DNA of 64,000 bases. Source: Arabidopsis thaliana (Eukaryota; Streptophyta; Magnoliopsida; Brassicales; Brassicaceae). The stretch is taken from contig NC_003075.7 in the NCBI RefSeq assembly GCF_000001735.4, forward strand, positions 8,247,001 to 8,311,000. Reading direction: 5' to 3'. Below, piece after piece: positions 15,385 to 62,572 of this stretch. The notes beneath the pieces are model-generated. The model was not told the DNA's origin. It saw nothing but the letters and a program-made list of their open reading frames with translations, and did no database searches. Made by a program: the position numbers and the translations under genes. Numbering within the stretch: position 1 is the stretch's first letter; each line of letters opens with the position of its first letter.

Positions 15385-15859
15385 GGATTAATGATGCTCA
15401 TAAGTGTGGAAGAGCCTGAATCATTCGGAATGACCATGGTGATATTATGTTCTATGCGAGAGAGATGTTTCTACCTGCCTCAAACCGCATTGCCGCAGAA
15501 TTGCATGGGATCTTTTGGTACTACAAAGTCTGAGTGATTTACATCAGGATAATATTGAAATTTGGTCAGATTGTAATGGTGCTCTAGAAGCCATAAATGA
15601 TTATCTCAATTGGCCAATGTATTTTTCTTACTTATACATGATTCATCGTTTAATCTCAAAATTTGGGAGGATCGTCTTTAAACTACCATCTACAAAAGTG
15701 AATGCAATCGCAAGGGATATAGCTTTGAGTGTCACGAAAGAAGGACAATACATATCATATTTAGCTCGTGGAGGTCCGAGTTGGTTATATGCACAGACTA
15801 AAGCAGAAAAACATAATTTTCTTGTTGTAATCAGCTTATGTTTCTCGTATGAGTTTTAA
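15385..15859 (+). pseudogene. Broken RNase H-like domain of a retroelement-type gene
   Basis: Reading from about 15385 gives WINDAHKCGRA, then a stop, and IIRNDHGDIMFYAREMF...RIAAELHGIFW. Near 15510 the frame must shift by one, after which it continues LQSLSDLH...IEIWSDCNGALEAIN...NAIARDIALSVTKEG...LARGGPSWL to a stop at 15859. This is the layout of the plant RNase H-like domain (RVT_3) found in non-LTR retrotransposons and in domesticated genes: AEL.G, then SDC with the acidic residue, then A..IA..VT. At least one stop and one frameshift break it. The 3' flank is the founder sequence of the tandem array that follows. Confidence 0.65.
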
Positions 15860-39417: not shown

Positions 39418-40143
39418 TTGATCGATCACTCATGAGTGTGTTCCATGTTCTTCTTCTGATTTCTCTTGGTTGAATTTTTTAAAGAACTTGGTTTTCTCAT
39501 TCTTTCTTCTTTGTTACAAAATTCGAGAATTTTCAGAAGTGTTAACAAACTTTTTTTCTACATTATATTTTTCTTATGTAATGTGAATACATATGGCTCA
39601 CCACTCTAAAAAATTGTATGCATGGGATAGAAATCATTCTTGTTTTTTTTGTGAATGTATAAACATTCTTCTTCATAGATAATTTCACTTCTTTTTTTTT
39701 GTCAAAGATAATTTCACTTCAATGTAAGAAAAAAATCATTTTATTTGCAATTAAAAAAAAAAGGTATATTAGAAAAGTAATATAAAAAGAAGCAAGAAAA
39801 GGAAAAGTACAGACTAAGTTGGACCCAGAAGAACAAATTCTAATTTAAGCTTCCATCACAAATAATGAATCATGATGATACATGCCAACTAATTCCACTC
39901 TCACATCATGTAATTAAAAAGGTACTATAAACTCATATGATCATATAGTTTTTCACTTTTTCTAGACATAGCTTAAGATATTTGATAAAAGCCTCACTGC
40001 AACTTCATAATAATGGATGATATAAAGCTGGCAGATTAATTCCTAGATTACTTAGATAGATTCAGTTTTGTTCTAGGATGCACAAAAAAGGTTACAAAAT
40101 TATTTGTTTTCTTACTGTTTCTGGCACCAAAACAGAAAATGCC
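39418..40143. other. 3'UTR spacer between convergent DUF761 and EAF6 genes
   Basis: No gene supported. Both flanking genes end here, so the sequence is mainly untranslated 3' ends. A near-repeat, GATAATTTCACTTC, appears twice at about 39678 and 39708. Confidence 0.5.
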
Positions 40144-41622
40144 TTAGATGAGTGAACCATGGCCATACATATTCATATCAGGATCATCTTCATCTTCATA
40201 ATCTGGTTCTGTAGATGGTCTGCTTCTCTTTGCCTCTCTTGCTATTATTGATTGTCCTCTCCCTTTCTTCGGCTTTCCCCTGTAATTTTATCACATTGGT
40301 CAACAAACCAAAACCATGTATCAGAGACATACAGGGCAGGTACGAACGAGGTAAAGTAAGCTAGGTCGGGAAACTAACTGTGTCGACAAACCACCCTTGG
40401 ATCGCCCTGGCCCTAATTCAGCTCGTCCATCTATATCATACAGAGATAAAGTGTGTAAAAACTGATCCAAGATTTGCAAAAGTGAATTCAGTGTAGTTGT
40501 TTGCTGCAGGGCTTACCTTCTCTTCCAACACCAAGTTCTTCAGCCTGAATACATTTCAGGGAAGATCAACATACCAGTCTAAAAACCTTTCTCTCTAATG
40601 AAGGCAGAGTAATAAACTAACAAATGACAGTCACAAGAAAAGACACAGGCATTTCAAAGAACTCCAGTCTCTAGCTATTTGACATCATAGATTCAGCTTT
40701 CACTTAAGTTTGAAGCTGCTAGAGATATTAGCCATGTAGTAATCAACCATATCTAAAGAAACTATATTCTCAAACCTTTTTTCTAAAGAAGGCCGAGTAA
40801 TAAACTAACAAACGACAGTCACAAGACAAGACATATAGTCACAGAACTCTAGCTCTTTCACAATCATAGATTCAGCTTTCACACTTGTTTGAATCTGTTA
40901 GAGATATTTGCCATGTAGTATTCAACCATATCTAAAGACACTGATTCTCAAACCAAACTACCTACTAGAAAGGGAACCATATGTTCTTTCGGCAGTTGAT
41001 TCTATTGCAAACCAACACAACAAAACAAAAAACGTCTTTGCATATGAAAGAAGGTGATAAAAATTGTCTAAAACATACAGCTGGTGATGTAACTGAGGAC
41101 AATGAGAAGACTCTGTCTTCAGGCTGAAACTTCCTTGACCTTTTAGCACTGCAGAAATGGGTTCATAACTTCATATCAAACTCAATTTCTCGTTCCACAC
41201 AACAAAATACTAAAACTGAGAAGTTACCACATTCTCTAAAGTGTATGAAGCTGCAAATAGAATCCAAAGTCAATGTTTTTTCAGAATCAAGAGAAGAGGA
41301 GAATGAGAGACCTAGCAGTACTCTTGGAGGAAGACAAAAACCCTTCAAAGCCTTTCAAAGCATTTCCAATATGACTCGATTCTTGAAGATAGCTTGTCTC
41401 CAATTCATAAACCTAAGATTACAAAGAACCCAAGATTTGAAGTATGCCCCAAACAATAATTTCTCTATGAAATCGAATTTCACAATTGAATCGACTCTGG
41501 ACCATTGGTGCCCTAACCTGTTTCTCGATGCTTCGTAACTCTTGGCGAAGCTTCTCTCGCTTGTTCAGAAGAGAAGTGAGCATCGCACCAGGATCCGTCG
41601 AACTCTTTTGCCCTAACGACAT
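40144..41622 (-). CDS. EAF6: EAF6-like subunit of the NuA4 histone acetyltransferase complex
   Basis: Six coding exons (41622-41518, 41412-41312, 41148-41079, 40544-40517, 40430-40379, 40279-40144) give 163 residues. The conserved EAF6 region is at the N-terminus: LTSLLNKREKLRQELRSIEKQVYELETSYLQ..., a helical coiled-coil stretch, then GNALKGFEGFL. The rest is basic and then acidic (RSRPSTEPDYEDEDDPD) and probably disordered. EAF6 subunits help tether the catalytic module in NuA4 and MOZ-type acetyltransferases, so it should act on chromatin in the nucleus. By order it is AT4G14385. Part of its sequence (intron 2 to intron 3, with exon 3) was copied to 45.7 kb. Confidence 0.9.
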
Positions 41623-42836
41623 TTTCTGAGAAAGAAATCCACAAATTGCGCAGCTTTTTCCCTTCCCAGAAATGGGTGGTCGCTGAAATTCGACGCGGAG
41701 GTAACCGTTGCCTGATTTGAGTCGATTACGATGGAGACGATGATTCTGGAATTCGATTTGGGGGTTTTCACCAATGGTCCGGTTTGATGTCAACAAAAAT
41801 AAAAATGGTCCGGTTCTCTTTTCTTTTTATAACTTTTTTTTATGGGTCAGAGATTTTATTAACTCAACTAGCAAATTGACCAAATAGTCTACGGCCAAAT
41901 GTGGCTACCTGCTTTGCTAAAGAAAGAATCAGCCAAAGAGTTGGCATTGCATGGAATAAACACAAGTAAAGTGAGAAGCATGGAAAAAGAATATTGAAAA
42001 ATATTCTACCTCTTGTAAGAATATTGAAAAATATGGTGGTATTTGCGATCCCATTGAATCTAATGTTTAATATAAAATGTAGTGATGTGCAACAAAATAG
42101 GTAAAATAAGAAATGCTTTGTTAAAAGTCATTGATATAAAAAAGTTTGATGTCCATGGAAAAAAAAATAAGTTTCCAGTATAACGCTTGATTGGTTCGAT
42201 ACTTCAATTTGAAGCTGTTGAATTATTTTACAGTAGAACGTGCATAAGGTCCAACCAATTACTCAGCAAACTATAATAAACGAGTGATGAACTTAGATTT
42301 CTGGTAGCCTAAAATCACTAGCTTCTTTATAAAGTTTCCACTATGTCACATATTCTCGGTGTTTTATGTTAGGAATAGGAGCATCTCCGCTGAAACCCCG
42401 CCGCAACTTTCTCCCAACAAAATAGACATTTAGACTTTATTAAGAGACGACGACTTCAAAGTCTTTAATTATAACTTAATGACTTAATAACTCGGGTCAT
42501 TTTTTAATCTTTGTCTTGAATTTTTCTCCTAATTATTTCCGACTAAAGAAACACTTTCCCTTAATTTATATATAGGTGACCTGACCACCACTCCTTCCGA
42601 TCATCATGACTCGACGTGGCTCGAGACAAAACTTTTAATATAAATGGACGAACTTTTTGTCTCAATCTCGTCAACCTTTAGCAAAACCTCTTGCATTACT
42701 GATCTTCTTCTTCCACTTGGTAAGTCTTTCTCTGCCCCCTCTTCATGCAATGGTTGACTTTTTTGTTTGTGGTCGTGGAAGTTAGTAACTTAAATCTGTG
42801 TTTCCAAACTATTTGTGTGATTAGTTTAGGTTTGCG
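41623..42836. other. Divergent promoter region of EAF6 and AT4G14390
   Basis: Toward the + side, a TATA-like TTAATTTATATATAGG sits at about 42561-42576. It is followed by a leader with its own intron (donor CACTTG|GTAAGTC near 42720, acceptor TTTAG|GTTTGCG just before the ATG). The block from about 42140 matches the region upstream of ACD6 at about 46600-46800, so this promoter belongs to the duplicated unit. Confidence 0.6.
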
Positions 42837-45083
42837 ATGGACAGTTCTGAAGCAGAGCTAGATAGAATTGAGGCACAAAGGTCAACAGATGCGTCTCATG
42901 ATCAACAGAACAGAACATACTTACCCATGAACATACACGGTTCACAAGACTTCTCTCAAAGCGGAGGAGATGGCGTCACGCCACTTACAGGAGACACCGA
43001 ATCTGTGCCAGAGTTCCTTACTAACCTTAGATTGTCGGATCTTTACGCTATCCGTGGTGAAGATGTCCGGATGATTCCAGAGGTTTTTAGTAAAATAAGT
43101 GATGGGAACAAAGAATGTCTGGAGAAGTTGAGAAGCCGTGGAATTTCAGTGGCACGTATCAAGAGCAATACAGGAGATTCAATTCTTCATCTTGCTGTTA
43201 CATGGGGTCATCTAGAACTAGTGAAGGAGATTGTCTGTGAATGCCCGCGTCTTCTCTTGGAGCAAAACTCAAGCGGTCAGACACCGCTACATGTGGCGGC
43301 TCATAGCGGTCATACCACTATTGTTGAGGCTTTTGTCGCATTGGTAACATTTTCTTCAGCTAGACTGTGTAATGAAGAGAGTGAGAGAATGAACCCATAT
43401 GTTCTCAAGGACAAAGATGGAAATACTGCTCTGTACTACGCGATTGAAGGGCGCTATTTCGAGATGGCTGTATGTCTGGTGAACGCAAACCAGGATGCTC
43501 CTTTTCTTGGAAATAAGTATGGAGTATCTTCCTTGTTTGTGGCAATAAATACTGGAGATGTATCTCTTGTGAAAGCAATTTTGAAAATCATAGGCAACAA
43601 GGACCTTAAAGGGAAGAAGTCTAACTTGGAGTCAAAGTTACAAGGGCAGAAATCTCTTGCACATGTTGCTTTGGTGACCCAGAGTATAGGTTTGTTTTTC
43701 GCTTTAACCAGTAGCAGCTGCATTTATTCTATTCAAATATGTAAAACCAGTTTGAGACGGGAATTTCCTCCTCAAGGCGGTAAAAATATTTGTATGTATA
43801 CTAATTGTTGTTCCCAATTGTTTGAGCAGGTGTCCTTGATGTTATTCTTGATGAATATCCAAGTCTTATGGACGAGCGAGATATAAATGGTTGGACTTGT
43901 CTTTCACTCGCAGCACATATAGGGTATTATGAAGGAGTATGCAACCTCTTAGAACGATCAACAAAGGGTGTTTATGTCTGCGACCAAGATGGTTCTTTTC
44001 CAATTCATACAGCTGCAGAGAAAGGTCATGAAAATATTGTTGAAGAGTTTATAAAACGATGTCCAGGTTCAAAACACTTACTTAACAAACTTGGTCAGAA
44101 CGTTCTCCACATTGCAGCAAAAAATGGGAAATTTTGGATTTCGAACATGTTGATAATTAATAAAGATACGGAACATCTGGGTGTTGGGCAAGATGTGGAC
44201 GGGAATACACCTTTGCATCTTGCCGTCATGAACTGGCACTTTAAATCCATTACTTGGCTTGCTAGGAGTAGCAAGATACTGAAAGTGCGGAACAAAAACG
44301 GCTTAAGAGCTAGGGATATTGCCGAGAGAGAGGTGAAACCCCACTACATCTTTCAGGAGGTATGTATAATTTCGTTTCATACAACAAAATTTGATATCAC
44401 ATAAATGATTTATAGCTCGACCCCCATTTTTTGAGTTACAGAGGTGGACACTGGCGCTCTTATTATACGCTATTCACTCAAGGGGTTTCGAATCTGTACA
44501 CTCATTAACAAAACCGTCAGTGCCACTAGACCCTAAAAATAACAGAGATTACGTCAACACTCTTCTCCTGGTAGCTGCTCTTGTAGCCACAATGACGTTT
44601 GCTGCAGGTTTTACAATACCAGGTGGGTTTAACAGCTCTGCTCCACACTTGGGCAGGGCAACTTTGGCCACTAATCCAACTCTCTTCATTTTTCTGGTAC
44701 TTGACATCTTGGCCATGCAAAGTTCCGTTGCAACAATAGGTATTCTTATTTGGGCGCAGTTAGGTGATCCAGTGCTCATTCGCTCATCCTTACATGTGGC
44801 TTTGCCCTTACTGCTTTTTGCTTTACTCTGCATGCCCTTGGCATTCCTTTTTGGCGTGGTCACTGCAGTTGGGCATGTGAAATGGCTTGTAGTCATCATT
44901 TGCATTATATCTGTTTTATTCTTTTCTTGGGCGATCTTTGTCCTTGGCCCTCACGTCATGCTACAACGGTCATACGTTTCTCCCAAGTACGCTGGTGACT
45001 TTCTCGTGACTTTTATGCAGTATAAAGACATAATTGGGCTTTTTGTGTCTTTGATAAAGTTTCTTTTTTGTGGTTGTTATTAA
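42837..45083 (+). CDS. Ankyrin-repeat, four-transmembrane protein, ACD6 paralogue
   Basis: Three coding exons (42837-43689, 43830-44359, 44442-45083) give 674 residues. Start MDSSEAELDRIEAQRS is nearly that of ACD6. About eight ankyrin repeats (about 100-460) include SNTGDSILHLAVTWGH and SGQTPLHVAAHSGH, and later DVDGNTPLHLAVMNW. A PGG domain with four predicted membrane helices follows (LLLVAALVATMTFAAGFTIPGGF, then LDILAMQSSVATIGI..., two more, ending FLFCGCY). ACD6-type proteins sit at the ER and plasma membrane and control salicylic acid and cell-death signalling. The frame is intact and the domain order complete, so it is probably expressed. By order it is AT4G14390. Unlike ACD6 it has no intron after codon 25. 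Confidence 0.92.
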
Positions 45084-45098
45084 GAGTTTGTAGCCTAT

Positions 45099-45509
45099 TC
45101 AAAGGCATTCTTCGTATGAAAAAATCATCAAAAGTTTATTGATGAAAGGAGATTTTTGTTCTCTTTCAAAATAAAAATAAAAAGCTAGATATGATGGTCT
45201 CTCTGAGAAGCGGTATCTTGGTAGCTTTAACTGATAGCTCAACTCACTCAATCCGTAGTCATCGAACACCGACTTCACAAGCTTGTCGTGCGTTATTTCC
45301 GTATCTATTTGCACAACTCTACACCATTTATCGACGGTGTTAAATACAAATTCTTTACCCAATCGTATCGAGAGAAGGATGAAAGAAGAATGAGGAAGAC
45401 GGTGATGAATTGGAAATTCCGATGATGTGAAAAACTCATGTGAAGAAGACGAGTTGAAAAAAAAAACGTTTCGTATTTCCTTTGATGATGATGACATGGA
45501 CTGTTGCAT
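45099..45509 (-). pseudogene. 136-codon ORF, possible transposase N-terminal fragment
   Basis: The product contains DKWCRVVQIDTEITHDKLVKSVFDDYGLSEL. This recalls the PB1-like N-terminal domain of plant MuDR-type (MULE) transposases, where W...V.I....T...LV..V.DDYGL is typical. No zinc finger or DDE catalytic part follows, so it would be a fragment. The last coding part (LPRYRFSERPSYLAF) has a degraded counterpart with a stop downstream of ACD6 at about 51421-51470, so the sequence was part of the duplicated unit. It could also be an unrelated ORF. Confidence 0.35.
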
Positions 45510-45701
45510 CCGACATCATTTTTTTAATTGATGAAGTGACAAGTAAGCCACCAAACAAACATGAAAATTTGCCTAAATAAATCAGCCAAATAAAGTTATA
45601 TGTTAGTCGCAACATGAATACTATTACAGTAATTAAAAACGAAAAAACGGCAAGTTACTTCAGCCGTTTAGCAAACAAAATAAAACACACACACATGATT
45701 C

Positions 45702-45940
45702 GATTGCTAACCAACACAAGAAACAAAACAAACACATCTTTGCCTATAAGATAATGTGTATAAACCATACAACTAGTGATGTGACGGAGGACAATGAGAA
45801 GACTATTTCATTATGCTGAACCGTCCTTGACGTCTTAGCAGTTAGCACTGTAAAATGGGTTCATATCATAGTAAACGAATCACTCTACACAACAATTACA
45901 TGCTAAAAACTAAGAAGCTAAGTTACCAAATTCTCTATAG
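45702..45940 (-). pseudogene. Duplicated fragment of EAF6 (intron 2, exon 3, intron 3)
   Basis: This stretch aligns with 41003-41242 inside EAF6. Shared runs include GAGGACAATGAGAAGACT, CCTTGAC.T.TTAGCA, AATGGGTTCATA, CACAACAA and AGTTACCA.ATTCTCTA. EAF6 exon 3 (41079-41148) is covered but carries substitutions and an indel, and no neighbouring exon follows, so it cannot encode protein. It marks the left end of the tandem duplication that produced the AT4G14390/ACD6 pair. Confidence 0.8.
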
Positions 45941-46922
45941 AAATAGCAATCACTTACAATAACCAATGCTACATAACAACTTTTGAGTCCATAACTGATA
46001 AATTGATAGAAACTGTTTGAATTTGCAAACCCAAAACCGTTTCTTAGGATGGAGAAATGGGTTTGTATTTTTCTATTTCCGATCAAGGAAAAATATATCA
46101 GGCAACAACTGCGGAAGATAGGGCATTTTGGGATGAAGGAGGAAACCATAGTTAACAAGCGGAAACAATTTCAAAGGTTGATTTCAAAGATCATAAAGTC
46201 AAAGTCAAATCCCCATAGAGAGACTCGGTTACGGAAGTGTTGGTATCCGAATATCCGATAGTCATAGCCTCAGAACTTATGTTAGAATCAATAGGTTTAA
46301 CCATGCAGTGTGCACTTTGGAAATCAAGCCAAGAAAAGCTATCCACGCAAACAATTTGCGTTAGAGCGAAATCGGATAAAGAGAAAGAAAATATAGGATT
46401 TAAAAATCTTATAGCGAGTAAGACTTATTTGAAACATCGTCAAATTTACTTCTTTTGGTGTATATTTCTCATTATATGGCGTATATATCTGTTTATGTAA
46501 GAAATTGTTTCCAAAAATTACTGTATACTGACTTTGTAATCTTGTTTTGATATCAATGAATTTATAAGGAAAAAAATAAAATAAAAATATAAAGTATGAT
46601 GTACATGTAAAAAAAGTTGTTTCAAGCGTAATTGTTTTTTGGCTAGAGAATGAATATACAGCAACAGTAAACTAATAAACTTGCGATGAACTAAAATTTC
46701 TGGTATTCCTACAATCAATGAATCACTAATTTATCTATAAGTTTTAGCTATATCCGCTTAAACCCCGCCTCAACTTGCTCTCTGGTCTGGGTATAGTTGG
46801 GCTACAACAGTGAAACCGTAATTAGGAAAGAAATGATAAAAACCCAATCCAGAAGCTTACTGCAAGATAAAGAGAAAGATCATGAAGAGGTAGGAGTGAT
46901 TCATATAACAAACAGGGTCACG
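45941..46922. other. Spacer upstream of ACD6, partly duplicated
   Basis: About 46000-46500 has no match I can see elsewhere and no supported gene. From about 46600 it aligns in blocks with the region upstream of AT4G14390 (for example CGATGAACT.A.ATTTCTGGTA and CCGCT.AAACCCCGCC.CAACTT), as expected for the duplicated promoter. Confidence 0.5.
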
Positions 46923-47530
46923 TTGTCACTTTCTCCCAGAAAAATACAAATTTAGACTAACTATATAAGGAGACGACTTCAGAGTCTTCTAATGGGTTAG
47001 TATAACTCGGGTCATCTTTTAATCTCTGGCTTTAAAGACATGGTAAGATTCCATATATATGAAAACTCTGTGTGTGGTGGATTGCTTTTTTCATTTAAGG
47101 CAAAGATAGGTTTTAAGGCAGAAGACAAGAACGACCTTTGGCTTATTTATAGGAGACCACCACTTTCACTTGAGTCGAGACAGTAACGACATTTAGAATT
47201 TGCATTACTCATCTTGTCACTTTCTCCCAGGAAAAAAAAATACAAATTTAGACCAACTATATTAGGAGACGACTTCAAAGTCTTCTAATGAGTTAGTAAC
47301 TGGGGTCATCTTTTAATCGCCGGCTTTCAAGACATGTACAATTTCATATGAAAACTCTGTGTGTGGTGGATTGCATCCAAGACAGTTTTAAGACAGAAGA
47401 TAAGAACGGCCTTTGCTTATTTATAGGAGACCACCACTCCTCTCGATAACCATGACTCGAGACATTAACGACTTTTAAAACTAAGGGACGAACCTTAAGC
47501 AAAAGCTCTTGCATTACTCAAATTCTTCTG
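46923..47530 (+). promoter_or_regulatory. ACD6 promoter core repeated in tandem
   Basis: Two copies, about 46923-47212 and 47213-47530, share TTGTCACTTTCTCCCAG, AATACAAATTTAGAC.AACTAT, GGAGACGACTTC, AGTCTTCTAATG, GTCATCTTTTAATC, GAAAACTCTGTGTGTGGTGG and TTTTAAG.CAGAAGA. Each carries a TATA box (CTTATTTATAGGAGACCACCACT; about 47142 and 47415) and a TGCATTACTCA leader word. AT4G14390 has one copy of this core. A leader intron follows (donor CACTTG|GTAAGTC near 47537, acceptor TTTAG|GTTTGCG before the ATG). Only the downstream TATA is next to the intact leader; the upstream one may give longer transcripts or be inactive. Confidence 0.8.
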
Positions 47531-47667
47531 CCACTTGGTAAGTCTTTTTCTCTGCCCCTTCTGCATGCAATGGTTGACTTTTTTGTTTGTGGACGTGGTA
47601 GTAACTAGTAAACTTAAATCTGTGTTTTCACTTTTCAAACCATTTGTGTGATTATTTTAGGTTTGCG

Positions 47668-50600
47668 ATGGACAGTTCTGGAGCAGATCTAGATAGAATT
47701 GAGGCACAAAGGTCAATGTTAGTTTCTCATGATCAACGGAAAGGTACATGAGTCATAGGGTGGCCACAAATTTTGAATATTCATTACATGTGCTTTATTA
47801 ACGAGTATAGTGACCCTATATAAATTATTATTGACACCTATGCAAAACCAACCAATCTACATAAAAAAGATAAGGAAAAACTATTCTACTTGATTCTTGT
47901 TATAAACTAGGATATAACACTAGGATATAACTAGCAATATACCACATAACAATTATATTGTTTTATAAAAATTTAATAAAATTAGTCTTATTCAACATGT
48001 CTTTTATTAACAAAATAATTAATAAAAATATAACCCATATGAATTACCGGTTAATAATATTTTAACTTTTTATTAATATCGATTCAAACCTGTTTCACCA
48101 TATAACATGTCTCACAATATAACTTGTCCTATATTATTTTAAATTGTTTATATGTTTAAATATATTTATAATATTTTAAACTTTTTAATTGAATTTGGAT
48201 TTATTAATTATAATATTATAACTTAAAAAATTTACTATATCAGGTAAACTTAAACATTTCAACTATAAAAAAAACCGTATAGAAACTTTGTAAATTTGGA
48301 TATTTACTAAGTTAAATTTCATGTTCATTAAGATTCGAATTCATTTTTTATCTTATTTTTTTTATGGCTCTGAACGATTGTCTAAATATTTTAGCTGATG
48401 TTGGATGTTGAACTCAATTTATTTTCTATTAATTGAGTAATATATGTTCGTTTTAAACAATTGGAATCACAAGAATACAGACAAATTAAACTTTTTATGT
48501 CTTATATGATGATTCAAAATAATTAAAAAATAAATCTTAATGATAGGAGAATCATTCTTTTAAATTTTATGATTTTTTTATTTTATAATTGATGTTAAAA
48601 TCTTTTAATTGTAAAGTTGTTTGGTTATAACTTATAAGTAATGACATTCTTTGTAAATACTAACTGAAAACAAAGTTACTCTCTAAAATGTAATTCAAAA
48701 ATATTAATATAGATAGTTAAGAACTAATAAATGTCACTATCCAAGATTTATATAATTTAGTAAAAAATCTACATAATTTTTTTTTAACAAAACGCGCAAG
48801 TGTTTATGTTCTTTTCTCTTATGAGTCTTCAACTTGACAAATCTCGATTAGTTAAAATTTAGATTAATTTTGAATTGACTATTAGATAAAGATATTTATG
48901 ATTTCATTAACTTATTATATTCTGATATTTACAAATTTATATTTTAGATTTTTCATAAGTTAATTGATTTCATAGTTAGAACTCACAAATTTTGTCTCAT
49001 GAAATGTAAGACGAGTGGTTAATTCGATTGATGAAATAAAACAGTAGAAATATTTTGGCAAAAAGAAAACAATCGTAAGTGATACAAAATAGTTAGAAGT
49101 GATAAAAATTAGCGATAAGAGAGCTGTAAAACTTTCGATATATCTACATAAGATACTAACTACTATACTAGTAAATAACTATTTTGACCCTGGTAACAAA
49201 TTGTTTTACCAGATTTCTCTCACAGCGGAGGAGTTGGCACCACGTCACCTACGGGCGACACCGAACCTGTGCCAAAGTTCCGTACTAACCTTAAATTGTC
49301 GGATCTTTTCGCTCTCCCTGGTGAAGATGTCGAGATGACTCCGGAGATTTTTGGTGGAATGAGTAATGGGGAAAAAGAATGTCTGGAGAAGTTGAGAAGC
49401 AATGGAACGCCAATGGAACGTGTCAAGAGCAATACAGGAGATTCAATTCTTCATATTGCTGCTAAATGGGGTCATCTGGAACTAGTGAAGGAGATTATCT
49501 TTGAATGTCCATGCCTTCTATTCGAGCAAAACTCAAGCCGTCAGACACCGCTACATGTGGCTACTCATGGCGGTCATACCAAAGTTGTTGAGGCTCTTGT
49601 TGCATCGGTAACATCTGCTTTAGCTAGTCTGAGTACTGAAGAGAGTGAGGGACTGAATCCACATGTTCTTAAGGACGAAGATGGAAATACTGCTCTGTAC
49701 TACGCCATTGAAGGACGCTATTTGGAGATGGCTACCTGTCTGGTGAACGCGGACAAGGATGCTCCTTTTCTTGGAAATAACAAGGGAATATCTTCCTTGT
49801 ACGAAGCCGTAGACGCTGGAAATAAATTTGAAGACCTTGTGAAAGCAATTTTGAAAACCACAGACGACAACGTGGACCGTGAAGTGAGGAAGTTTAACTT
49901 AGATTCGAAATTACAAGGGAACAAACATCTTGCACATGTTGCTTTGAAGGCCAAAAGTATAGGTTTGTTTTTTGTTTTCTTTAATAATCAGTAACAGCTA
50001 CGTTTAATCTGTTAAAATTATGTAAAACCAGCTTGGGACGAGAATCTCCTCCCCAAGATGGCTAATTGTTGTTCCCAATTGTTTGAGTAGGTGTCCTTGA
50101 TGTTATTCTTGATGAATATCCAAGTCTTATGGACGAGCAAGATGAAGATGGTAGGACTTGTCTTTCATACGGAGCATCCATTGGGTATTATAAAGGACTA
50201 TGCAACATCTTAAACCGATCAACAAAGGGTGTTTATGTCTGCGACCAAGATGGTTCTTTTCCAATTCATTCGGCTGCAAAAAACGAACATTACGAAATTA
50301 TTAAAGAGTTTATAAAACGTTGTCCAGCTTCAAAATACCTTCTTAACAGACTTGGTCAGAACATTCTCCACGTGGCGGCAAAAAATGAGGCCTCTCTTAC
50401 TGCATATATGTTGATGCATGATAAAGATACGAAACATCTGGGTGTTGGGCAAGATGTGGACGGGAATACACCTTTGCACCTTGCCGTCATGAACTGGGAC
50501 TTTGACTCCATTACTTGTCTTGCTAGCCGTAACCACGAGATACTGAAATTACGAAACAAAAGCGGCTTAAGAGCTAGGGATATTGCCGAGTCAGAGGTGA

Positions 50601-51360
50601 AACCCAACTACATCTTTCATGAGGTATTTCTGATTCCGTTTCATACAACACATTTGATCCCTCATAAATGATTTATAGCTTGACCTCCATATTTTTGGAA
50701 TTACAGAGGTGGACACTGGCGCTCTTATTATACGCTATTCACTCAAGTGGTTTCGAATCTGTTAAGTCATTAACAATACAGTCAGTGCCACTAGACCCTA
50801 AGAAAAACAGACATTACGTCAACGCTCTTCTCGTGGTAGCGGCTCTTGTAGCCACAGTGACGTTTGCTGCAGGCTTTACAATACCAGGTGGTTATATCAG
50901 CGATAGCAAAAAACCAAACTTGGGCAGGGCAACTTTGGCCACTAACCCAACTCTCTTCATTTTTCTGCTTTTTGACATCTTGGCAATGCAAAGTTCTGTT
51001 GCAACAATATGTACTCTTATTTGGGCGCAGTTGGGTGATCTAGCACTCATCCTCAAATCCTTACATGTGGCCTTGCCCTTACTACTTTTTTCATTACTAT
51101 GCATGCCCGTAGCATTCCTTTTTGGCGTGATCACTGCAATTGCCCATGTGAAATGGCTTTTAGTCACCATTAGCATTATATCTGGTGGATTCTTCCTTTT
51201 CGCAATCTTTATCCTTGGCCCTCACGTCATGCTACAGCGCTCACACCTTCCGCCCAGTTCTGGTATATTTCTCAAGACTTTTATGCTGACTATAGACATA
51301 TCTGAGTTGTTTGTGATTTTGATCAAAGCTTGTTTTGGTTGTGTGGCGTGTTCCGAATAA
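47668..51360 (+). CDS. ACD6: ACCELERATED CELL DEATH 6, ankyrin and transmembrane immune regulator
   Basis: Four coding exons (47668-47743, 49213-49962, 50091-50623, 50707-51360) give exactly 670 residues, the length I recall for Col-0 ACD6 (AT4G14400). Ankyrin repeats span about 65-455 (SNTGDSILHIAAKWGH; SRQTPLHVATHGGH; DVDGNTPLHLAVMNW). The C-terminal PGG domain has four membrane helices (VAALVATVTFAAGFTIPGGY; LLFDILAMQSSVATICTLIW; two more) and a Cys-rich end, CFGCVACSE. ACD6 acts at ER and plasma membrane, forms a positive feedback loop with salicylic acid, and affects FLS2 levels. Natural alleles cause lesions, dwarfism and hybrid necrosis. The ORF is intact. Features not shared with the tandem paralogue are a 1.47 kb first coding intron and the doubled promoter. 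Confidence 0.97.
47744..49212 (+). other. Long AT-rich intron 1 of ACD6, absent from the paralogue
   Basis: The junctions are CGGAAAG|GTACATG and TTACCAG|ATTTCTC. The interior is strongly AT-rich, has stops in all frames and no transposon gene. Local motifs (CTAGGATATAACACTAGGATATAACTAG near 47930, an ACGCGCAAG word near 48791) are reminiscent of Arabidopsis Helitron-type remnants, but I could not fix ends. AT4G14390 reads straight through this point in frame. Confidence 0.75.
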
Positions 51361-53076
51361 ATCATCAAAAGTTTATAGATCAAAGGATATTTTTCTTCTC
51401 TTTTTTTTTTCTTTCAAAAAGCTACGAGATATGCTGGTCTCTAGCTCTGAGAAGCGGCATCTTGATCATACAACTCATTCGAAGTCCTATCAGAATTATC
51501 TGTAGTTGTAATAAAGCGTGAAAAGTATATCATTCGAAGAGATTTTCCTCTAAAATAATCGAGTGATATTTTATTATTCGGTTTAGTGGATACCAGTTTA
51601 CTAATCTCTCGAATTTATGAACCACATTCAAAGGAGATGAGTTTAACAAAAAAAAAAGGTAAATTGTTTTTTATTCTCGTCGTGCGTTCCACATGAGTCG
51701 TTTTCAAGAGCAATATAGACGATACTTCACAAGAATTATTATTTTTGTTGGGGTATAAAAATTTGAAGATACGTTTGGCAACGACAATACGACGTTAGAT
51801 TGTTCCAAGAGGTGCAAAAACTTAGGGACCCTCTTTATTCGTTCACTGTAACCACTGACCACAACATGACTAGGTAGACTCTTCTTTTTGTCAATGTTGA
51901 TGTTTATACGATTTTGATGAGACTGGCTCTATCAAGATATGAATCTCTGATCATATCTCCACTAATCTTTCATCTTGTTATTCCCTCATTTACTTTTGAT
52001 TTCCTTCTCTCTCTCTCTTTTTTATGTATACAAATTTTTCTTTATTTCGCTTCACTAAACCCCACCATGTAATTGTGTGAGTTTTGGCGAAGTGGCGCAA
52101 CACCGTAGAGCACACCAACACTAACCCAATCCATTTTATGACCGTAAATTTTGTTGTTGATTAGTGTATTTTTTTCTTGTTTAGTTATTCTGAGAAGTAA
52201 ATTTTTTTTTTACAATTAGTTTTTAAACATAGTAAAATAAATTTATGACAGATTATAATATTATTTTAAAAATCAATAATATCTAACAAATTAAATAAAC
52301 AAATCACAAATTACTATATTTTAAATAAATATTGATAATTTTAATTATATTATTTTGTTTATTGGTTAACTCGCAGGATATGCGAGTTAATTCATTTGAG
52401 ATTGTAATCCGCCATATACTAACTCGATAACCCTGACTTTTTAGAAATCTAAAAGTATAACCCTATAATAAAATAGATTATGTCCAACTCGCGGATTCTA
52501 AACCTGAATTGACATGGCGGAACCATTCATAAAACCATACCAATTCTTGCGTTTTGGAAAGTTGGTTTCCTTTTCATTTCTTTGAATTTGATCCTAGATT
52601 GTGTAGTTCTCAAGCTCATGCTCTTGCTCGTCAAAAACGTATCAACGATTTGCTTTTCCTTTAGACGTTCTTGCATCGGATTGGTTTACTCAACTCCACT
52701 CGATGAAAAAGTTACTATCTTAAAAAGAACAAATGCAAATTCAATAAAATTCCCCAATATCTACGCATGAAAATATGATTCTGTCTTTTTTTTGTTTGTC
52801 TATCTTTCAATACTTTAAAAAGTGTATTTCTAGAGGCGATTTGTCATTTCCCGAATAGGAATTTGAGTAAAAAAAAACACTCTGTTTTTTATTTCCACTA
52901 ATATCAAATCGGCGAATATAGTTCCCACCATTCTTATCTCCTTGTCGTCACTCGGAATTTTTTAAATAATAGGATCGCTTTAATAATATAATCTCTATAA
53001 TTTATAGTTCCTTTTCCAATATTGGCGTCTCCGTTGAAGCTTTCCACAAATCTCAAATTTGTTTGGAGACTCTCAA
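51361..53076. other. ACD6 3' flank and bHLH104 promoter
   Basis: The first 130 bp match the 3' flank of AT4G14390 (ATCATCAAAAGTTTAT, TCTGAGAAGCGG.ATCTTG), closing the duplicated unit. The rest is AT-rich with no supported gene. A short perfect hairpin (TTAACTCGCA, 5-nt loop, TGCGAGTTAA) lies at 52366-52390. The bHLH104 leader lies just before 53077. Confidence 0.5.
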
Positions 53077-54503
53077 ATGTATCCTTCTCTCGACGATGAT
53101 TTCGTCTCTGATTTGTTTTGCTTCGATCAAAGGTTCGTCCTTTCGCACTCTTCTCTTCCTTCACCTTCCTCTGTTTTCTCTATCTCTTTCGATTCAGTTG
53201 TTTTATCGAATTTGATCCCTTTTTTCAATTGCAAAATCATATCTTTAATGTTCAATTCGATTTCTGTGAAAAGTGTTGTTGTTTTTTTCGCATTTCAGGG
53301 GGAAAGGTTGTGTCTTTTGATGATAATTTGACGAACCCTAATGTATCTGAAAGCTGTTAAATTGAATAGGAGAAGAAGTAGCTTTATGGATGTTGTTGTT
53401 TATATTTACTCCTATTGATGGATGTGAATCTTTTTGGTCATGATGACTCTTGTAGCAATGGAGCAGAACTTGATGATTACACACAGTTTGGTGTAAATTT
53501 GCAGACTGATCAAGAGGATACCTTTCCAGATTTTGTGTCATATGGTGTGAATTTGCAGCAGGAGCCAGATGAAGTCTTTAGTATTGGAGCTTCTCAATTG
53601 GATTTGTCCTCGTATAATGGAGTTTTGTCGCTAGAGCCAGAACAGGTGGGGCAACAAGATTGTGAAGTTGTGCAGGAAGAAGAAGTAGAGATCAATTCTG
53701 GTTCATCTGGTGGAGCTGTTAAGGAAGAACAGGAACATTTAGATGACGATTGCTCCAGAAAGCGGTGAGTTTTGAAAAAATATAAACTTTTTGTGATTTG
53801 GTGGTAGTTGGTTGTGTTTTTAATTGAATCTGTGATGGTTGTTGATAGGGCAAGGACTGGATCGTGTAGCAGAGGAGGAGGAACTAAAGCGTGTCGTGAA
53901 AGGTTGAGGAGGGAGAAGCTAAATGAGAGGTATGTTTAGAGCTTAGTCTATGTTTTTGTTTTGTGAAGTGAGTTGTCTCAAGGGGAAAAAAATTGTTGTT
54001 GTTCTGTTAGGTTTATGGATTTGAGCTCGGTTTTGGAGCCTGGGAGGACTCCTAAGACTGATAAACCGGCTATACTCGATGATGCAATCCGTATATTGAA
54101 TCAACTTAGAGATGAAGCTCTTAAGCTTGAAGAAACTAACCAGAAGCTTTTAGAGGAGATCAAGAGTCTCAAGGTTGGTTGTTCATTCACTTTCACCTAA
54201 ACCAAGAATCTTGTTCAATGGGATGTGAACAGATTTCTAAGTTTGTATGTTTCTTTATAGGCGGAGAAGAACGAGCTGAGGGAGGAAAAGCTGGTGTTGA
54301 AGGCGGATAAAGAGAAGACAGAACAACAGTTAAAGTCTATGACGGCTCCATCTTCAGGGTTCATACCTCATATTCCAGCTGCATTTAACCACAACAAAAT
54401 GGCTGTTTATCCAAGTTACGGTTACATGCCAATGTGGCATTATATGCCTCAATCCGTTCGTGACACATCTCGTGATCAAGAACTCAGGCCTCCTGCTGCT
54501 TAA
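53077..54503 (+). CDS. bHLH104: bHLH104 transcription factor (clade IVc, iron-deficiency response)
   Basis: Five coding exons (53077-53132, 53456-53764, 53849-53929, 54011-54173, 54261-54503) give 283 residues, matching bHLH104 (AT4G14410) as remembered. The N-terminal half is acidic (activation-type, FVSYGVNLQQEPDE). The bHLH domain is at about 131-185: KACRERLRREKLNERF with the His/Lys-Glu-Arg type DNA-contact set in clade IVc form, then KPAILDDAIRILNQLRDE. A leucine-zipper-like coiled coil follows (LEETNQKLLEEIKSLKAEKNEL...). Clade IVc factors pair with ILR3 and one another to activate clade Ib bHLH genes and PYE under iron shortage. The C-terminus (YPSYGYMPMWHYMPQS) is conserved in the clade. 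Confidence 0.96.
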
Positions 54504-56738: not shown

Positions 56739-57909
56739 TGAAGCTCTCTCTTTGCCTTTTTTTTTTTTTTCTTCTCCGAATCAAACGCAGATACCAGAAA
56801 GAGAGAGAGAAGCGTCAGATTTGGGTCTTTAAATCAACAGACAGGAGGAGAAAGAAAACGAAGAGGCTGATTTTGAAATATTTAGAAATTTTTGGGGTCA
56901 AAAAGGTGAGATTTTTATTTCGTCGACCTACTCGCGCGAGTACAATGATGTTGGTTTTTGTACTCGCTACTTCGTTGGGAAGTAAACGCCACGTAGGATG
57001 CTTTACACGTTGCCTGGCCAATGACGTTCGTCCGAGTCATTTCAAGTATTTAAGCCGGCAACCAATAAAACGCGACTCATTATTACTAACATTTTAAATC
57101 AAAACTAACCTCAAATCAAATACCAAACTATTTTATCACCCTTTGGTATTTATTTAGAAAATCAATATAAATTTGATATTTTAAATAAATAAAATTAGTT
57201 TTATTTTAGGATAAAACTGAAAAAATTTATATATGAAATCGTGTATATGAATCTGGGCAACTTTTAAATAGTTGAGATTTTGTTTGGGAATTTTTCTATT
57301 TAGATTCATTCTGTTTTATGATAATGGTAATATAAAGAGGTTAAATTTTAAAAAGCAACAATTTTACTTAAATTTATTTCATATAATATAATTTAATACA
57401 ATTTTGCATAAAGTTTTAAAAAGAATTTATACTGTGAAAAAGGGGTCACAACTAAAATTATCATTTTTTGGTGAGTTTTTCTTGTCGTCTTGTATGCTAA
57501 TGCTGGTTTAATTATTACATGTCTGGGAGTGTGTAAATTATCTTTTAGGAACATAAAAGACCAAGATTGATAGATGCGTTTTCGAACGAAAAACAGTTTG
57601 TGTTTTAATACCGGTTTAACATGGCGTAATTTCAGCAATCACAAATTCACAACACCGTTTCTCCTTCTCCGATAACTACTACAACCCGGTTATCTCTAGT
57701 TCATCTAATTAGCTCTAAAACCGATTAAACCGGTTCCATATTTTAAACAACCAAGCCTAAGAACAAGCCCAACAACAACACTGAACAAGCCAACATTGAA
57801 CATGTTTATTATTTCTGTGATCACAGTTCTAGAGTTTAACATTGTCTCTTTCTCCCAAAACATGTGTTTTTCAAATAAACCAAAGATTCACTCTCTGAAA
57901 GACGCTTTC
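56739..57909. other. Promoter of the lesion-inducing family gene and IBR10 3'UTR spacer
   Basis: Just above 56739 lies a CT-rich leader (coding sense GAGAGAG/AAAGAAAAA tracts). ORFs on the + strand here (56551-57097) are antisense to that leader and have no family signal. From about 57100 the sequence is AT-rich up to the IBR10 stop codon at 57910, including that gene's 3'UTR. Confidence 0.5.
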
Positions 57910-58632
57910 TTAGAGCTTAGGTGTTGCAAACACTCTAGTCTCTAAACCAAGAATCCCACAAAGCTCCGGATACAAACTCTTCCTTATCGACGCATAAACC
58001 TCACCGCTCCATTTCTTCGCCGCCAATTTCTCACCAAGGCGCACACTAGCCACAACAACACCTTCCTCACTATCATACGCGGCCGAGTCAACAATCCCCA
58101 AACCCACCGCTTCTTCTCCTCTAATCTTCTTCCCACTCAACAACAGCTCTCTCCTCGCCGCACTCGTCCCGATCTTAGCCCTAACCAACGCCGAGAAATA
58201 ATCCGGCATCGAAAGCCCGATGTCAACTTCACTCATATACAGAACCCCACGATCTTTCCTCATGAACACGTAATCATGGCTCAAAGCCAAAATCAATCCC
58301 GCGGCGGCGGCGTGGCCGTTCAAGGCGGCGATCGTCGGCATAGGGAGATCGAGAAGCGCTGCTACCACCGGTTTGAATGATTCAACCATTTGGTGAAGCC
58401 GGTTTGCGGCTCCGGTTTTGGATCCGGCGGTTTGAGCCCATGCAAGATCGAATCCGTTGGAGAAGAATTTGCCGTTGGCGGTGGTGATGAGGATGGATCC
58501 ACGGGTGGATTGAGATTTGGCTTGTTCGAGAAGGGAGAGAATGGTGGCAATTGTGTCGGGGTGGAATCTGTGTTCGCCGTCTCCGGTTAGGGTTAGGAGG
58601 AAGAGATCGCCGCGTTTCTCTAACGTACACAT
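57910..58632 (-). CDS. IBR10: Peroxisomal delta3,delta2-enoyl-CoA isomerase IBR10/ECI2
   Basis: Intronless, 240 residues, from MCTLEKRGDLFLLTLTG to FATPKL. It is a crotonase fold: oxyanion-hole region ILITTANGKFFSNGFDL, then PTIAALNGHAAAAGLILALSHDY, and the catalytic-loop region LYMSEVDIGL. The C-terminal tripeptide PKL is a peroxisomal targeting signal type 1. The enzyme moves double bonds during beta-oxidation of unsaturated fatty acids and is implicated in converting indole-3-butyric acid to auxin. The frame continues upstream for 29 codons but only to a TTG, so the ATG at 58632 is the start. It is tandemly duplicated with the gene at 59946-60662. By order it is AT4G14430. Confidence 0.95.
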   Translation of the reverse strand: MCTLEKRGDLFLLTLTGDGEHRFHPDTIATILSLLEQAKSQSTRGSILITTANGKFFSNGFDLAWAQTAGSKTGAANRLHQMVESFKPVVAALLDLPMPTIAALNGHAAAAGLILALSHDYVFMRKDRGVLYMSEVDIGLSMPDYFSALVRAKIGTSAARRELLLSGKKIRGEEAVGLGIVDSAAYDSEEGVVVASVRLGEKLAAKKWSGEVYASIRKSLYPELCGILGLETRVFATPKL

Positions 58633-59945
58633 GGTGGTGATCGGAGGAAGAAGAAGATTTCTGGATGATAATGAAAACTTGAAATGTGTGAGAAATCGTG
58701 TTGTTGTTGAATTGTGCAAATATAGAGAGAAATATACCTTATCCTGATTGGTCTATGTTTCCATTTTGGTTCAATCTGTTGTAAAGGCCCATGGGCCGGC
58801 GTGTACGAGATCTCTTTTTTTGGTCAAACATAATTTCATTTGGATTTAATACCAAATATAATTTAGACCTTGAATGGTACTAATATCTAACATGTTTTTA
58901 GTTTTTGATTTTTCTGAAAAAAAAATTTAATTTTTCAATCAAGATTATGAAAATAAATATTTTCTCTACAAAAAGAGCATCTAGTTTTTTTAAAAGGGTT
59001 TTCGCAAATTTCTAGAGAAAATTCAAAATCTCTTTAAAAAGTTTTATCCTCACTAATGTCAATGAGAAATGATATAAACCATCTTTTCCTTTCTCATAGG
59101 ATTCTTCTTCTTTCCTTTTTTCTTTAAAGAAATCTATAATTTTAGTTACACATGTTTTTTTTAATACAATTTATCTTTATAATCGTTTTTTTATATATTT
59201 TATTATCGGATGACTCAGTAAGTCTCGGTAAAAACATACCGAAATGCTACCGAATATACTACTTTCGATCTAAATAGAATTGTACCGTCACACTATCTGA
59301 TCTTCATAGTCGTTTCCTCGTCCGCCTTGGATGTCCACTCACATCTCGTTGGAATTAACGACAGAAGAAGAAAAAGCATAGCTCAAGTGTAACAAGAAAA
59401 TATGTGTTTATTGTTTGGTTTTTCCATCTTCGTTACTGACTTATTGTATTGGTTTTACATTCAAAAAAAAAAAAAAAAATGGTTATTTTTGTGTAACACT
59501 TCCTCTCTCTATATACAATGTTGTCTTTTGGATTAATTCCCCACACCATATAAGGTTTCTCGTGGGTTGTCTAATTCGGTTGAGTTTGGTTGATCAGACT
59601 GCACCCGTTTCTCATTCTATCTTATGGCGATATATACGATTATGGTCATATGACGTAATTTGGATATTATAAATAGATGCATGATGTGACATATATTGCT
59701 GATGCTAGTACGATTATCAAGTATGAATTACAAATATTCTAGCTAATATAACTTATCAATAGTTGTATTGATATGGTTATTAATATTGTTAAAATTTCAA
59801 CTAAATGAAAAATAAAAAGACGTAGGTTAGATTAATTATGTTTTATTGGTGAGAAACAAATACGTGCTTAGTGAAATGGACGTTGACTTTTGTCGGCAAT
59901 ATTCATATTTCAACCATTTTTCTCCCAACAAGACAATGAGAGTTT
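58633..59945. other. Spacer between the two isomerase genes
   Basis: It contains the IBR10 promoter (TATA-like TCTATATTTGC in coding sense near 58718) and the 3'UTR of ECI3. AT-rich, with an A17 run at about 59464. No gene supported; the ORF at 59415-59672 has no recognisable content. Confidence 0.5.
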
Positions 59946-60662
59946 CTAGAGGTTGTGAGTGGCCAAGTTATTTGCCGTTAAATCAACCATCCGACAAAGC
60001 TCCGGATACAAACTCTTCCTAATGGTTGCATACACCTCACCATTCCATTTCTTAGCGGCCAAACTTTCTCCAAGGCTCACTGTAGCCTCCACCACACCTT
60101 CCGCACTATCATGCGCCGCTGAGTCCACGATCCCGAGAGCCACCGCTTCTTCTCCTTTGAGCTTCTTCCCGCTCAGTAACAGCTCCCTTCTCGCGATACC
60201 TGACCCAACCTTAGCCACGACCAACGCCGAGAAGTAGTCCGGCACCGGTAGCCCGATGTCCACCTCGCTCATATATAGAACCCCACGGTCTTTCCTCATG
60301 AAAACGTAGTCGTGGCTCAGCGCAAACATCAGCCCCGAGGCTGCCGCGTGGCCGTTCAAGGCGGCGATCGTCGGCATTGGAAGATCGAGGAGGGCGGCTA
60401 ACACCGGTTTAAAGGATTTGACCATTTGGTGCATCCGTTTTATAGCACCGTGTCCAGCGGATTGAGCCCACGCGAGGTCAAAGCCATTGGAGAAGAACTT
60501 TCCGTGACCGGTAGTGATGAGGACGGATCCTTTTGTGGATTGAGACTTTGCTTGTTCAAGAAGCGAGAGAACAGAGGCGATCGTGTCGGGGTGGAATCTG
60601 TGCTCGTCTTCGCCGGTTAGGGTTAGGAGAAAGAGATCGCCGCGCTTCTCTAACGTACACAT
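59946..60662 (-). CDS. ECI3: Peroxisomal enoyl-CoA isomerase ECI3 (IBR10 tandem paralogue)
   Basis: Intronless, 238 residues, very similar to the product at 57910-58632 across the whole crotonase domain (VLITTGHGKFFSNGFDLAWAQ; PTIAALNGHAAASGL; YMSEVDIGLPVPDYF). The C-terminus is HNL instead of PKL; it resembles a non-canonical PTS1 (small or basic residue, then Leu). A two-residue deletion near residue 75 and a different tail separate the two. Expected role is isomerisation of unsaturated fatty acyl-CoA in beta-oxidation, partly redundant with ECI2. By order it is AT4G14440 (also called HCD1). Confidence 0.93.
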   Translation of the reverse strand: MCTLEKRGDLFLLTLTGEDEHRFHPDTIASVLSLLEQAKSQSTKGSVLITTGHGKFFSNGFDLAWAQSAGHGAIKRMHQMVKSFKPVLAALLDLPMPTIAALNGHAAASGLMFALSHDYVFMRKDRGVLYMSEVDIGLPVPDYFSALVVAKVGSGIARRELLLSGKKLKGEEAVALGIVDSAAHDSAEGVVEATVSLGESLAAKKWNGEVYATIRKSLYPELCRMVDLTANNLATHNL

Positions 60663-62572
60663 GGTGCGTACGTTAAGGACTTACTGATTTAGGATGGTAC
60701 AAGAATAAGGAAAGAGTTAGTAGAAAACTGTGATATAGAAGTGAGTGTTGAGTAATTAATAGAAGGGAACCCAACTGTATATTTATTAGACGTGCTTTGC
60801 CACCGAAGTCTTTAAATTGGGTAATCTTCCCAACCATTTTGGTGTCAATGTTATTAAATGCAGACGAGACAAATGTGTATGAATGAATGTGTGACTTTCT
60901 TGCTGAAAATGATAATTGTAACTGTTTGTCCTTGGACGTAATTACCATTTTGTTCTTTCGCAGCTATTGGCTAAATCAATTTTGGTTTCCTTGTCTCCAC
61001 TTGATTAATATTAACAACCTTTTTTTAGTGCTTACACACTTACAACTGTTCGTATGATTTTTTAGATATCTTGTCATGGCTTTTGAATCTATGAACTTTA
61101 TTTTTGAAGCATGATTGATTGAGATCTCTGCTTTAGCATTACTCATGGACACATTCCATAAGAGACCGACATGAGTAGTTAAATTAGTTCACTAACTCTT
61201 TAAGTTGTGCAAACAACATTAGTTAGGTTAATATTAGTCCGCCAACTCTTTAATTTATTAAATACACAAGCTACATAGAAAAGAACAGTGTCTTTAGATC
61301 CATACTTGACCAGCCGGTCTAACCGATAAAACTGTTAACTAGACATATAACAATCATTATTTTACAAGATCCTATAATTCAAATACATATTCAAATATTT
61401 ATTTAATATGCAAAGATTTTTATTTTATACCGAATAAATACTAAGATTTATCTTGTTTATTGACTTTTATTTTTAAAAAATTTTATACCGTATTTATGTC
61501 CGATCAGAGCCGTCCATGAACGCAATAGGACCAAATTTATGCTTGCGGCCTCAATTACTACAAATAAAATATTGACCTAATTTTTTTATAACTTTCAGTA
61601 AAAACGTTGATTATTTGATTCTTAGATACCTATGGTCGTCAAAAGTTTGAGTCCATCTACCTTCATTTACCTTGTTATTTTTTCATTTTCACTCATTAAA
61701 ATAGGTCTAAATTTTGTTCTTTGCTTGCAATCTATTAAATACTAGAGACGGCTCTGTGTTCGATTAATGACACCACGATGGGACTTATAATACAAATCAG
61801 TATACTCATATATTACAAGATCATGTTAACTTTCTTACTATTTATATTTTGGTTAGCAACATGCAATATGCGGGTTTGAATAAGGCCATAAGGGTGATGA
61901 CACACTGACAACACTAACACAAACCATTGGATTACATTTTTTTGTTCGTGTAGAAGTTAATCAGGCGGCTAGTTGACTTGACTTGGCCTGAAAAATGCAA
62001 AAACCTCACATATTTAAGCACATCGTGACATGGTCCGATTTTTGCTTTCTTTTGTTTTGTGGCTTAGATTGTAAAGCTCTGTCCGCACTAGACTCAACTT
62101 ACATATTCATATTCATATTCACCTCTGGTCCATATATATTATAAAAGTCCAATAGAACATGTTCACGAGAATCTGTATAGGTAAACCTCATCCACCATTT
62201 AACATTTCATGAACATGTTTGACTTCCATTAACAAGATCGATGTCTTTGTAATTTAATATTAAAAAGAACTTTAACATAAAAACAAGCATGGAAAATTCA
62301 AAAAGAATTGGTCAAAGAGTATTGCCAAAACAAAAATGTAAAGAAACGGGAAAAGGGAAGATAAAGCAGCTAATTTTCTTTCTCCAACTCTGACCAATGA
62401 CCATATCCAAGCGTGTATGTAATGTACCTAGTCAACATGTTACAAGTCGTGGCCCTCCTCACCTTATTATATATGTCATCTACATAAACATCAGACATCA
62501 CACACCAACATCATTATTATGTTCTTTGATACAAAAGTACTCAATTATCCTACAATTCACAAATCTATCTCC
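60663..62572. other. Intergenic region with a hAT-type MITE
   Basis: The left part is the ECI3 promoter (TATA-like AATAAATATACAG in coding sense near 60780). The right part is the promoter of the small gene at 62573 (TATA-like TTATTATATATGTC near 62464). In between is AT-rich DNA and the MITE listed separately. No gene supported. Confidence 0.5.
61505..61756. mobile_element. hAT-type MITE (252 bp) with 8-bp target duplication
   Basis: Ends are inverted: CAGAGCCGTC at 61505-61514 and GACGGCTCTG at 61747-61756. Flanks are TGTCCGAT (61497-61504) and TGTTCGAT (61757-61764), an 8-bp duplication with one mismatch, the length expected for hAT transposases. No ORF inside, so it is non-autonomous. 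Confidence 0.88.

Follow-up and report, generated by a model that had tools for sequence, protein, structure and literature searches.

ACD6 is a well-studied gene of the growth-versus-immunity balance and lies in a locus that rearranges in nature, which raises the question of how ACD6 and its neighbour At4g14390 became a pair and how much DNA was copied when they did. We addressed this in a window of 64,000 nucleotides of Arabidopsis thaliana DNA (contig 4, 8,247,001-8,311,000), to whose first position all coordinates refer. The two are ankyrin-PGG genes on the plus strand, both open in this genome. At4g14390, also called ACL1 (PMC7817547), occupies 42837-45083 with three coding exons and 674 amino acids (gene A), and ACD6 (At4g14400) occupies 47668-51360 with four coding exons and 670 amino acids (gene B). 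They follow At4g14385, named EAF6 in PMC7047200, which is read from the minus strand (coding region 40144-41622, 163 amino acids). Its six coding exons were placed with splice sites at 41622-41518, 41412-41312, 41148-41079, 40544-40517, 40430-40379, and 40279-40144, where the length of exon 5 is set by the reading frame and its in-frame tail agrees with tblastn. The product carries the Pfam NuA4 domain (PF09340, E value of 6.7e-28). Comparison of the window with itself also revealed internal repeats elsewhere: a cluster at 15848-20130 with mostly 82-90% likeness, an 80% pair 2 kb apart at 57906-60666, and another 80% pair about 0.4 kb apart at 7141-7854.

Between the two ankyrin genes lies a decayed relic of EAF6 (45696-45940, minus strand, 245 bp), made up of exon 3 together with some of each neighbouring intron (2 and 3). 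Its source in EAF6 (40997-41241, minus strand) contributes 82 bp of intron 3, the 70 bp of exon 3, and 93 bp of intron 2. Local self-alignment of the two stretches spans 263 columns with 73.4% identity when gaps are counted and 34 mismatches in 227 aligned bases, that is, about 85% identity at aligned bases; a second alignment gave 35 mismatches in 225 aligned bases. The local score of 95 stands far above 300 dinucleotide-preserving shuffles (mean 15.8, SD 1.7, maximum 24), and the reverse strand of the relic scored 15. An earlier note on this DNA had matched 45702-45940 with 41003-41242, exon 3 included, and its coordinates proved good to within 6 bp. The note had also envisaged that the similarity might be insignificant or that a closer match might lie elsewhere in the genome. 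The shuffles speak against the former, and when the relic was compared with the whole genome at the DNA level (E value of ≤0.001, passing over very common words), only two places were reported, the relic itself and EAF6. Exon 3 of EAF6 (41079-41148) corresponds to about 45773-45851 in the relic, with insertions and deletions, in boundaries that we drew for the divergence comparison. Intron sequence is kept on both sides of the exon, and the relic is thus a DNA copy and not a retrocopy. It has no capacity to code for the NuA4 domain, and exon 3 alone is still recognizable at the protein level (22 amino acids, 64%, E values of 0.014 to 0.020).

The relic opens a longer series of matching blocks. 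What we call unit A (40997-45220, plus strand, 4,224 bp of surviving homology) and unit B (45696-51464, plus strand, enlarged by later insertions) are neighbours in the same orientation and share their homologous blocks in the same order. Beyond the relic, self-alignment paired 42264-42317 with 46665-46717 (80% with gaps counted, 55 columns), 42406-42918 with 47219-47749 (69% with gaps counted), and 42941-45220 with 49205-51464 (82% with gaps counted). After the relic there follow a promoter, an ankyrin gene, and a 3' flank for the second time, arranged and oriented as one would expect of a tandem duplication, and the collinear blocks bear out what the earlier note had said of this arrangement. 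Unit A reaches at least 137 bp beyond the stop codon of gene A. Past 45220 and 51464 no further homology was found (score of 21 versus a mean of 17.6 and a maximum of 28 in 200 plain shuffles), nor was there any between the sequence left of 40997 and the insert at the join (score of 17 versus a mean of 17.4 and a maximum of 30 in shuffles). The original unit had been put at about 4.6 kb, a size that counts in a repeat fragment lying at the join; we correct it to at least 4.22 kb (40997-45220). Intron 3 of EAF6 holds a tandem repeat of its own (40583-40771 and 40772-40954, K of 0.136), which ends 43 bp from the boundary at 40997 and may mark a break-prone spot.

Divergence between the two units is even wherever they can be aligned. 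With gaps removed and unalignable stretches left out, differences per site amounted to 0.156 in the EAF6 relic (35/225), 0.142 and 0.148 in the two ankyrin introns (17/120 and 12/81), 0.175 in the 3' flank (17/97), and 0.158 at ankyrin synonymous sites (73.9/467.8). Promoter and 5' untranslated region gave 0.141 (54/383), a figure that depends on the alignment, as the longer alignment of 42406-42918 (80 mismatches over 569 columns) shows a somewhat higher divergence. The six partitions are homogeneous (χ2 of 1.03, 5 degrees of freedom, P of 0.96), and a single tandem duplication fits this likeness. The Jukes-Cantor K was 0.174 for the relic (bootstrap range of 0.115 to 0.239 over 225 sites) and 0.166 for the five noncoding partitions pooled, next to an ankyrin dS of 0.177 (0.140 to 0.228). 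This agreement of the relic with ankyrin synonymous sites and introns supports the proposal that the duplicated unit consisted of part of EAF6, an ankyrin gene, and its flank. The relic had further been put forward as a dating marker free of immune selection, which is a fair description of a marker that comprises 225 sites only and in which one of the two copies contains a working exon of EAF6.

Taken with the collinear blocks and the lack of any other match found in the genome, these values lead us to infer, with high confidence, that a single tandem duplication, at least 4.2 kb long and including part of EAF6, gave rise to ACD6 and At4g14390, after which the right copy decayed or lost its EAF6 sequence and gained repeats and an intron. 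The copied segment would have run from intron 3 of EAF6, or from further in, through the 5' half and promoter of this gene and the promoter and body of the ankyrin gene, ending no less than 137 bp beyond the gene A stop codon. The left copy would have retained EAF6 whole, whereas the right copy, the future ACD6, would have opened with a cut-off and nonfunctional piece of EAF6 that then decayed. Later losses would have removed EAF6 exons 1 and 2 and the promoter, leaving only 245 bp of EAF6, and the same copy would later have taken up repeats, a repeat in its promoter, and an intron. The repeat piece at the join would either have been captured as the join formed or be the remnant of a larger insertion. 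Two observations run counter to a single duplication: apart from the 55-column block, the chain of homology is broken on the way from the relic to the ankyrin promoter, and the repeat fragment conceals where the breaks occurred.

This fragment (45223-45671, 449 bp) comes from the interior of a dispersed repeat and lacks both of its ends. Together with a further 25 bp or so it fills the 475 bp (45221-45695) that separate the end of the 3' flank homology (45220/51464) from the start of the relic (45696), and the junction is not directly readable, which restricts the placing of the break point but leaves the duplication itself untouched. At least 44 of the 49 matches listed in the genome search belong to this repeat, a lower bound from 40 of 43 candidates scored that counts matches rather than separate loci. 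In six fetched copies, the relatives extend past the piece by roughly 350 to 1,200 bp on the left and 420 to 720 bp on the right, and in the six relatives with longer flanks neither repeat ends nor inverted repeats of more than 25 bp across the core were seen. When the piece was placed in a tree with seven relatives, its terminal branch was 0.073 (0.046 to 0.102 in 100 bootstraps), similar to the per-lineage divergence of the relic (0.087; 0.058 to 0.120). Judging from this branch length, the repeat piece could have come with the duplication or later, as a larger insertion that was trimmed by deletions, and in the latter case the original breaks can no longer be seen. The repeat fills the join, and the true break could therefore lie further into EAF6 or beyond. 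The claim that the duplication started inside EAF6 holds in so far as homology now stops at 40997, and it is to be read as a bound. The stretches 40050-41000 and 51440-53400 matched only themselves in the genome search, and the join repeat is thus found neither in intron 3 of EAF6 nor downstream of ACD6. Neither flanking stretch has such a copy, and we see no trace of unequal exchange between copies of the repeat.

A tentative further possibility, to which we would give about a quarter of our belief, is that a single event produced both the duplication and the repeat piece. During replication or repair, a template switch would then have joined the ankyrin 3' flank to intron 3 of EAF6 and copied about 450 bp from inside a dispersed repeat elsewhere on the way. 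ACD6 would have been born with a new upstream region made of EAF6 debris and repeat, and its first intron would stem from an insertion with repeat sequence that entered the first exon later. If this were true, two repeat insertions would have built the 5' half that sets ACD6 apart from its paralog.

The stretch of about 1 kb that holds EAF6 exons 1 and 2 and the promoter (41242-42263) has no partner in unit B, where the best score for it was 28 (mean of 21.7 and maximum of 31 in 200 plain shuffles), and neither DNA alignment nor the genome search nor tblastn found exons 1 and 2 there. The part of unit B without EAF6 homology contains a low-copy repeat (46230-46584) that occurs at two other places in the genome. 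Intron 1 of ACD6 (47744-49212, plus strand, 1,469 bp) contains dispersed-repeat sequence at 47919-48710, to which all of its at least 44 nonself matches in the genome search are confined (40 of 229 candidates scored). The coding sequence of At4g14390 and that of an outgroup paralog at chr4:2.58 Mb run through the position of this intron, which they lack, and around it ACD6 has about a dozen codons fewer than At4g14390. This absence from both genes makes it look as if ACD6 had gained the intron when DNA was inserted into its first coding exon. In a nonexhaustive survey of the intron-gain literature, no mention of ACD6 was found. The ACD6 promoter contains a tandem repeat of ∼280 bp (46918-47198/47209-47480), of which a single counterpart is present in the At4g14390 promoter. 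Its K of 0.112 is below that of the duplication, and the repeat is apparently younger than the gene duplication.

Could the relic have reached its place independently of the ankyrin genes? A transposable element might have captured the exon 3 piece of EAF6 and dropped it between them, and repeats do lie on both sides of the relic, the dispersed one on the left (45223-45671) and the low-copy one on the right (46230-46584). We nevertheless regard this as very improbable, given that the EAF6 piece is reported at no other place in the genome, that its position and orientation are those predicted by tandem duplication, and that it has diverged to the same degree as the ankyrin introns and promoter. 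Capture of the Pack-MULE or Helitron type finds no match in a relic that is single and in an adjacent repeat whose six relatives contain no inverted repeat of more than 25 bp. We give slightly less credit still to a series of events in which the ankyrin gene was duplicated first and a stretch of EAF6 was copied locally in a later, independent step. With a central part that does not align, the unit may not have been continuous, which leaves room for such a series, yet divergence is equal over the six partitions (P of 0.96) and the 55-column block (42264-42317/46665-46717) sits within the gap in the right order.

The earlier note had also held that the relic helps to explain why the locus rearranges so often, a claim that the results do not support. 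Lying about 4.7 kb from its source and in the same orientation, the relic forms a direct repeat that might serve as a recombination substrate and so be a partial cause of the rearrangements. The longest exact tracts of the EAF6 pair measure only 18 and 13 bp, however, compared to 54, 50, 47, and 46 bp for the ankyrin pair, and EAF6 would presumably be broken if crossing over at its two copies caused a deletion. In addition, the tandem duplication ACD6A-ACD6B of Se-0/Bla-1 is described in PMC4091793 as one in which ACD6A is a chimera of At4g14390 and ACD6, so that its join lies inside the ankyrin genes. We consider a causal role of the relic highly improbable.

The single tandem duplication that we favour can be roughly dated from the relic. 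At the mutation-accumulation rate of 7e-9 per year, the relic would be 12.4 (8.2 to 17.1) million years old. The rates of 1.05e-8 and 1.55e-8, derived in PMC1865379 from a 5-million-year split, give 8.3 (5.5 to 11.4) and 5.6 (3.7 to 7.7) million years, respectively. The same paper reports mean divergences between A. thaliana and Arabidopsis lyrata of 0.157 in introns, 0.148 at synonymous sites, and 0.105 in intergenic DNA, with a wide spread between loci, and the relic K of 0.174 is near the intron value. Closeness to these published values suggests that the duplication is about as old as the A. thaliana-A. lyrata split or somewhat older; the relic by itself does not discriminate between the two ages. 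A duplication that predates the split is in line with Todesco et al. (2014; PMC4091793), who derive ACD6 and At4g14390 from an "ancient duplication," include A. lyrata MN47 in both of their gene comparisons, and call the Col-0 order likely ancestral.

We used the outgroup paralog to ask how the two genes have evolved since. With ACD6 exon 2 as query (249 amino acids; 38 matches), the best nonself match was At4g14390 (67%), followed by the paralog at chr4:2.58 Mb (62%), which is probably AT4G05040. Over the 553 codons that could be aligned in all three genes, dS was 0.160 between At4g14390 and ACD6, 0.299 between At4g14390 and the outgroup, and 0.279 between ACD6 and the outgroup, with 101, 109, and 190 differences private to At4g14390, ACD6, and the outgroup, respectively. 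On these sequences, and with a clock taken for granted, At4g14390 and ACD6 are sisters with equal branches. Their private differences, at which the other gene agrees with the outgroup, are not clustered (P of 0.32 and 0.21; 2,000 shuffles), and dS between them ranged from 0.066 to 0.261 in 11 windows. We see no sign of a large recent conversion between the two in this genome. The agreement of the relic sites with ankyrin synonymous sites and introns likewise argues against large-scale homogenization of the pair here.

Tandem segmental duplications with a truncated neighbour gene leave an intron-bearing gene fragment at the boundary of the copies. The locus is of this same kind, with adjacent copies in the same order, introns in the fragment, and the same age across alignable partitions (P of 0.96), and its join differs in also having a piece of dispersed repeat. 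The EAF6 relic is thus a real but ordinary duplication scar. That the ACD6 pair stems from an ancient duplication is already published for the same two genes, with Col-0 as the likely ancestral state and A. lyrata compared; the part of PMC4091793 available to us does not mention EAF6, the extent of the unit, the join repeat, or a comparison of neutral with synonymous divergence. The Se-0/Bla-1 event in that paper is likewise a tandem duplication at the same locus, and unlike the one described here it is recent and has a chimeric ACD6A; EAF6 is not mentioned for it in the same part of the paper. A nonexhaustive search of the literature on At4g14385, and on EAF6 together with ACD6, found no description of the relic, and the one review found to treat both genes does so, in the part available, without relating them.

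The relic sets the minimal extent of the duplication that founded the ACD6 pair, and its sites, which lie outside the immune genes, allow a rough, independent dating. The relic sites also make plain that amino acid changes in the pair have accumulated as fast as silent ones (dN of 0.173, dS of 0.177, and dN/dS of 0.98 over 660 codons), with a dN of 0.33 in the last window, residues 613 to 674 of gene A. If the relic were found in other species, it would offer a presence/absence marker for sorting haplotypes of the ACD6 region.
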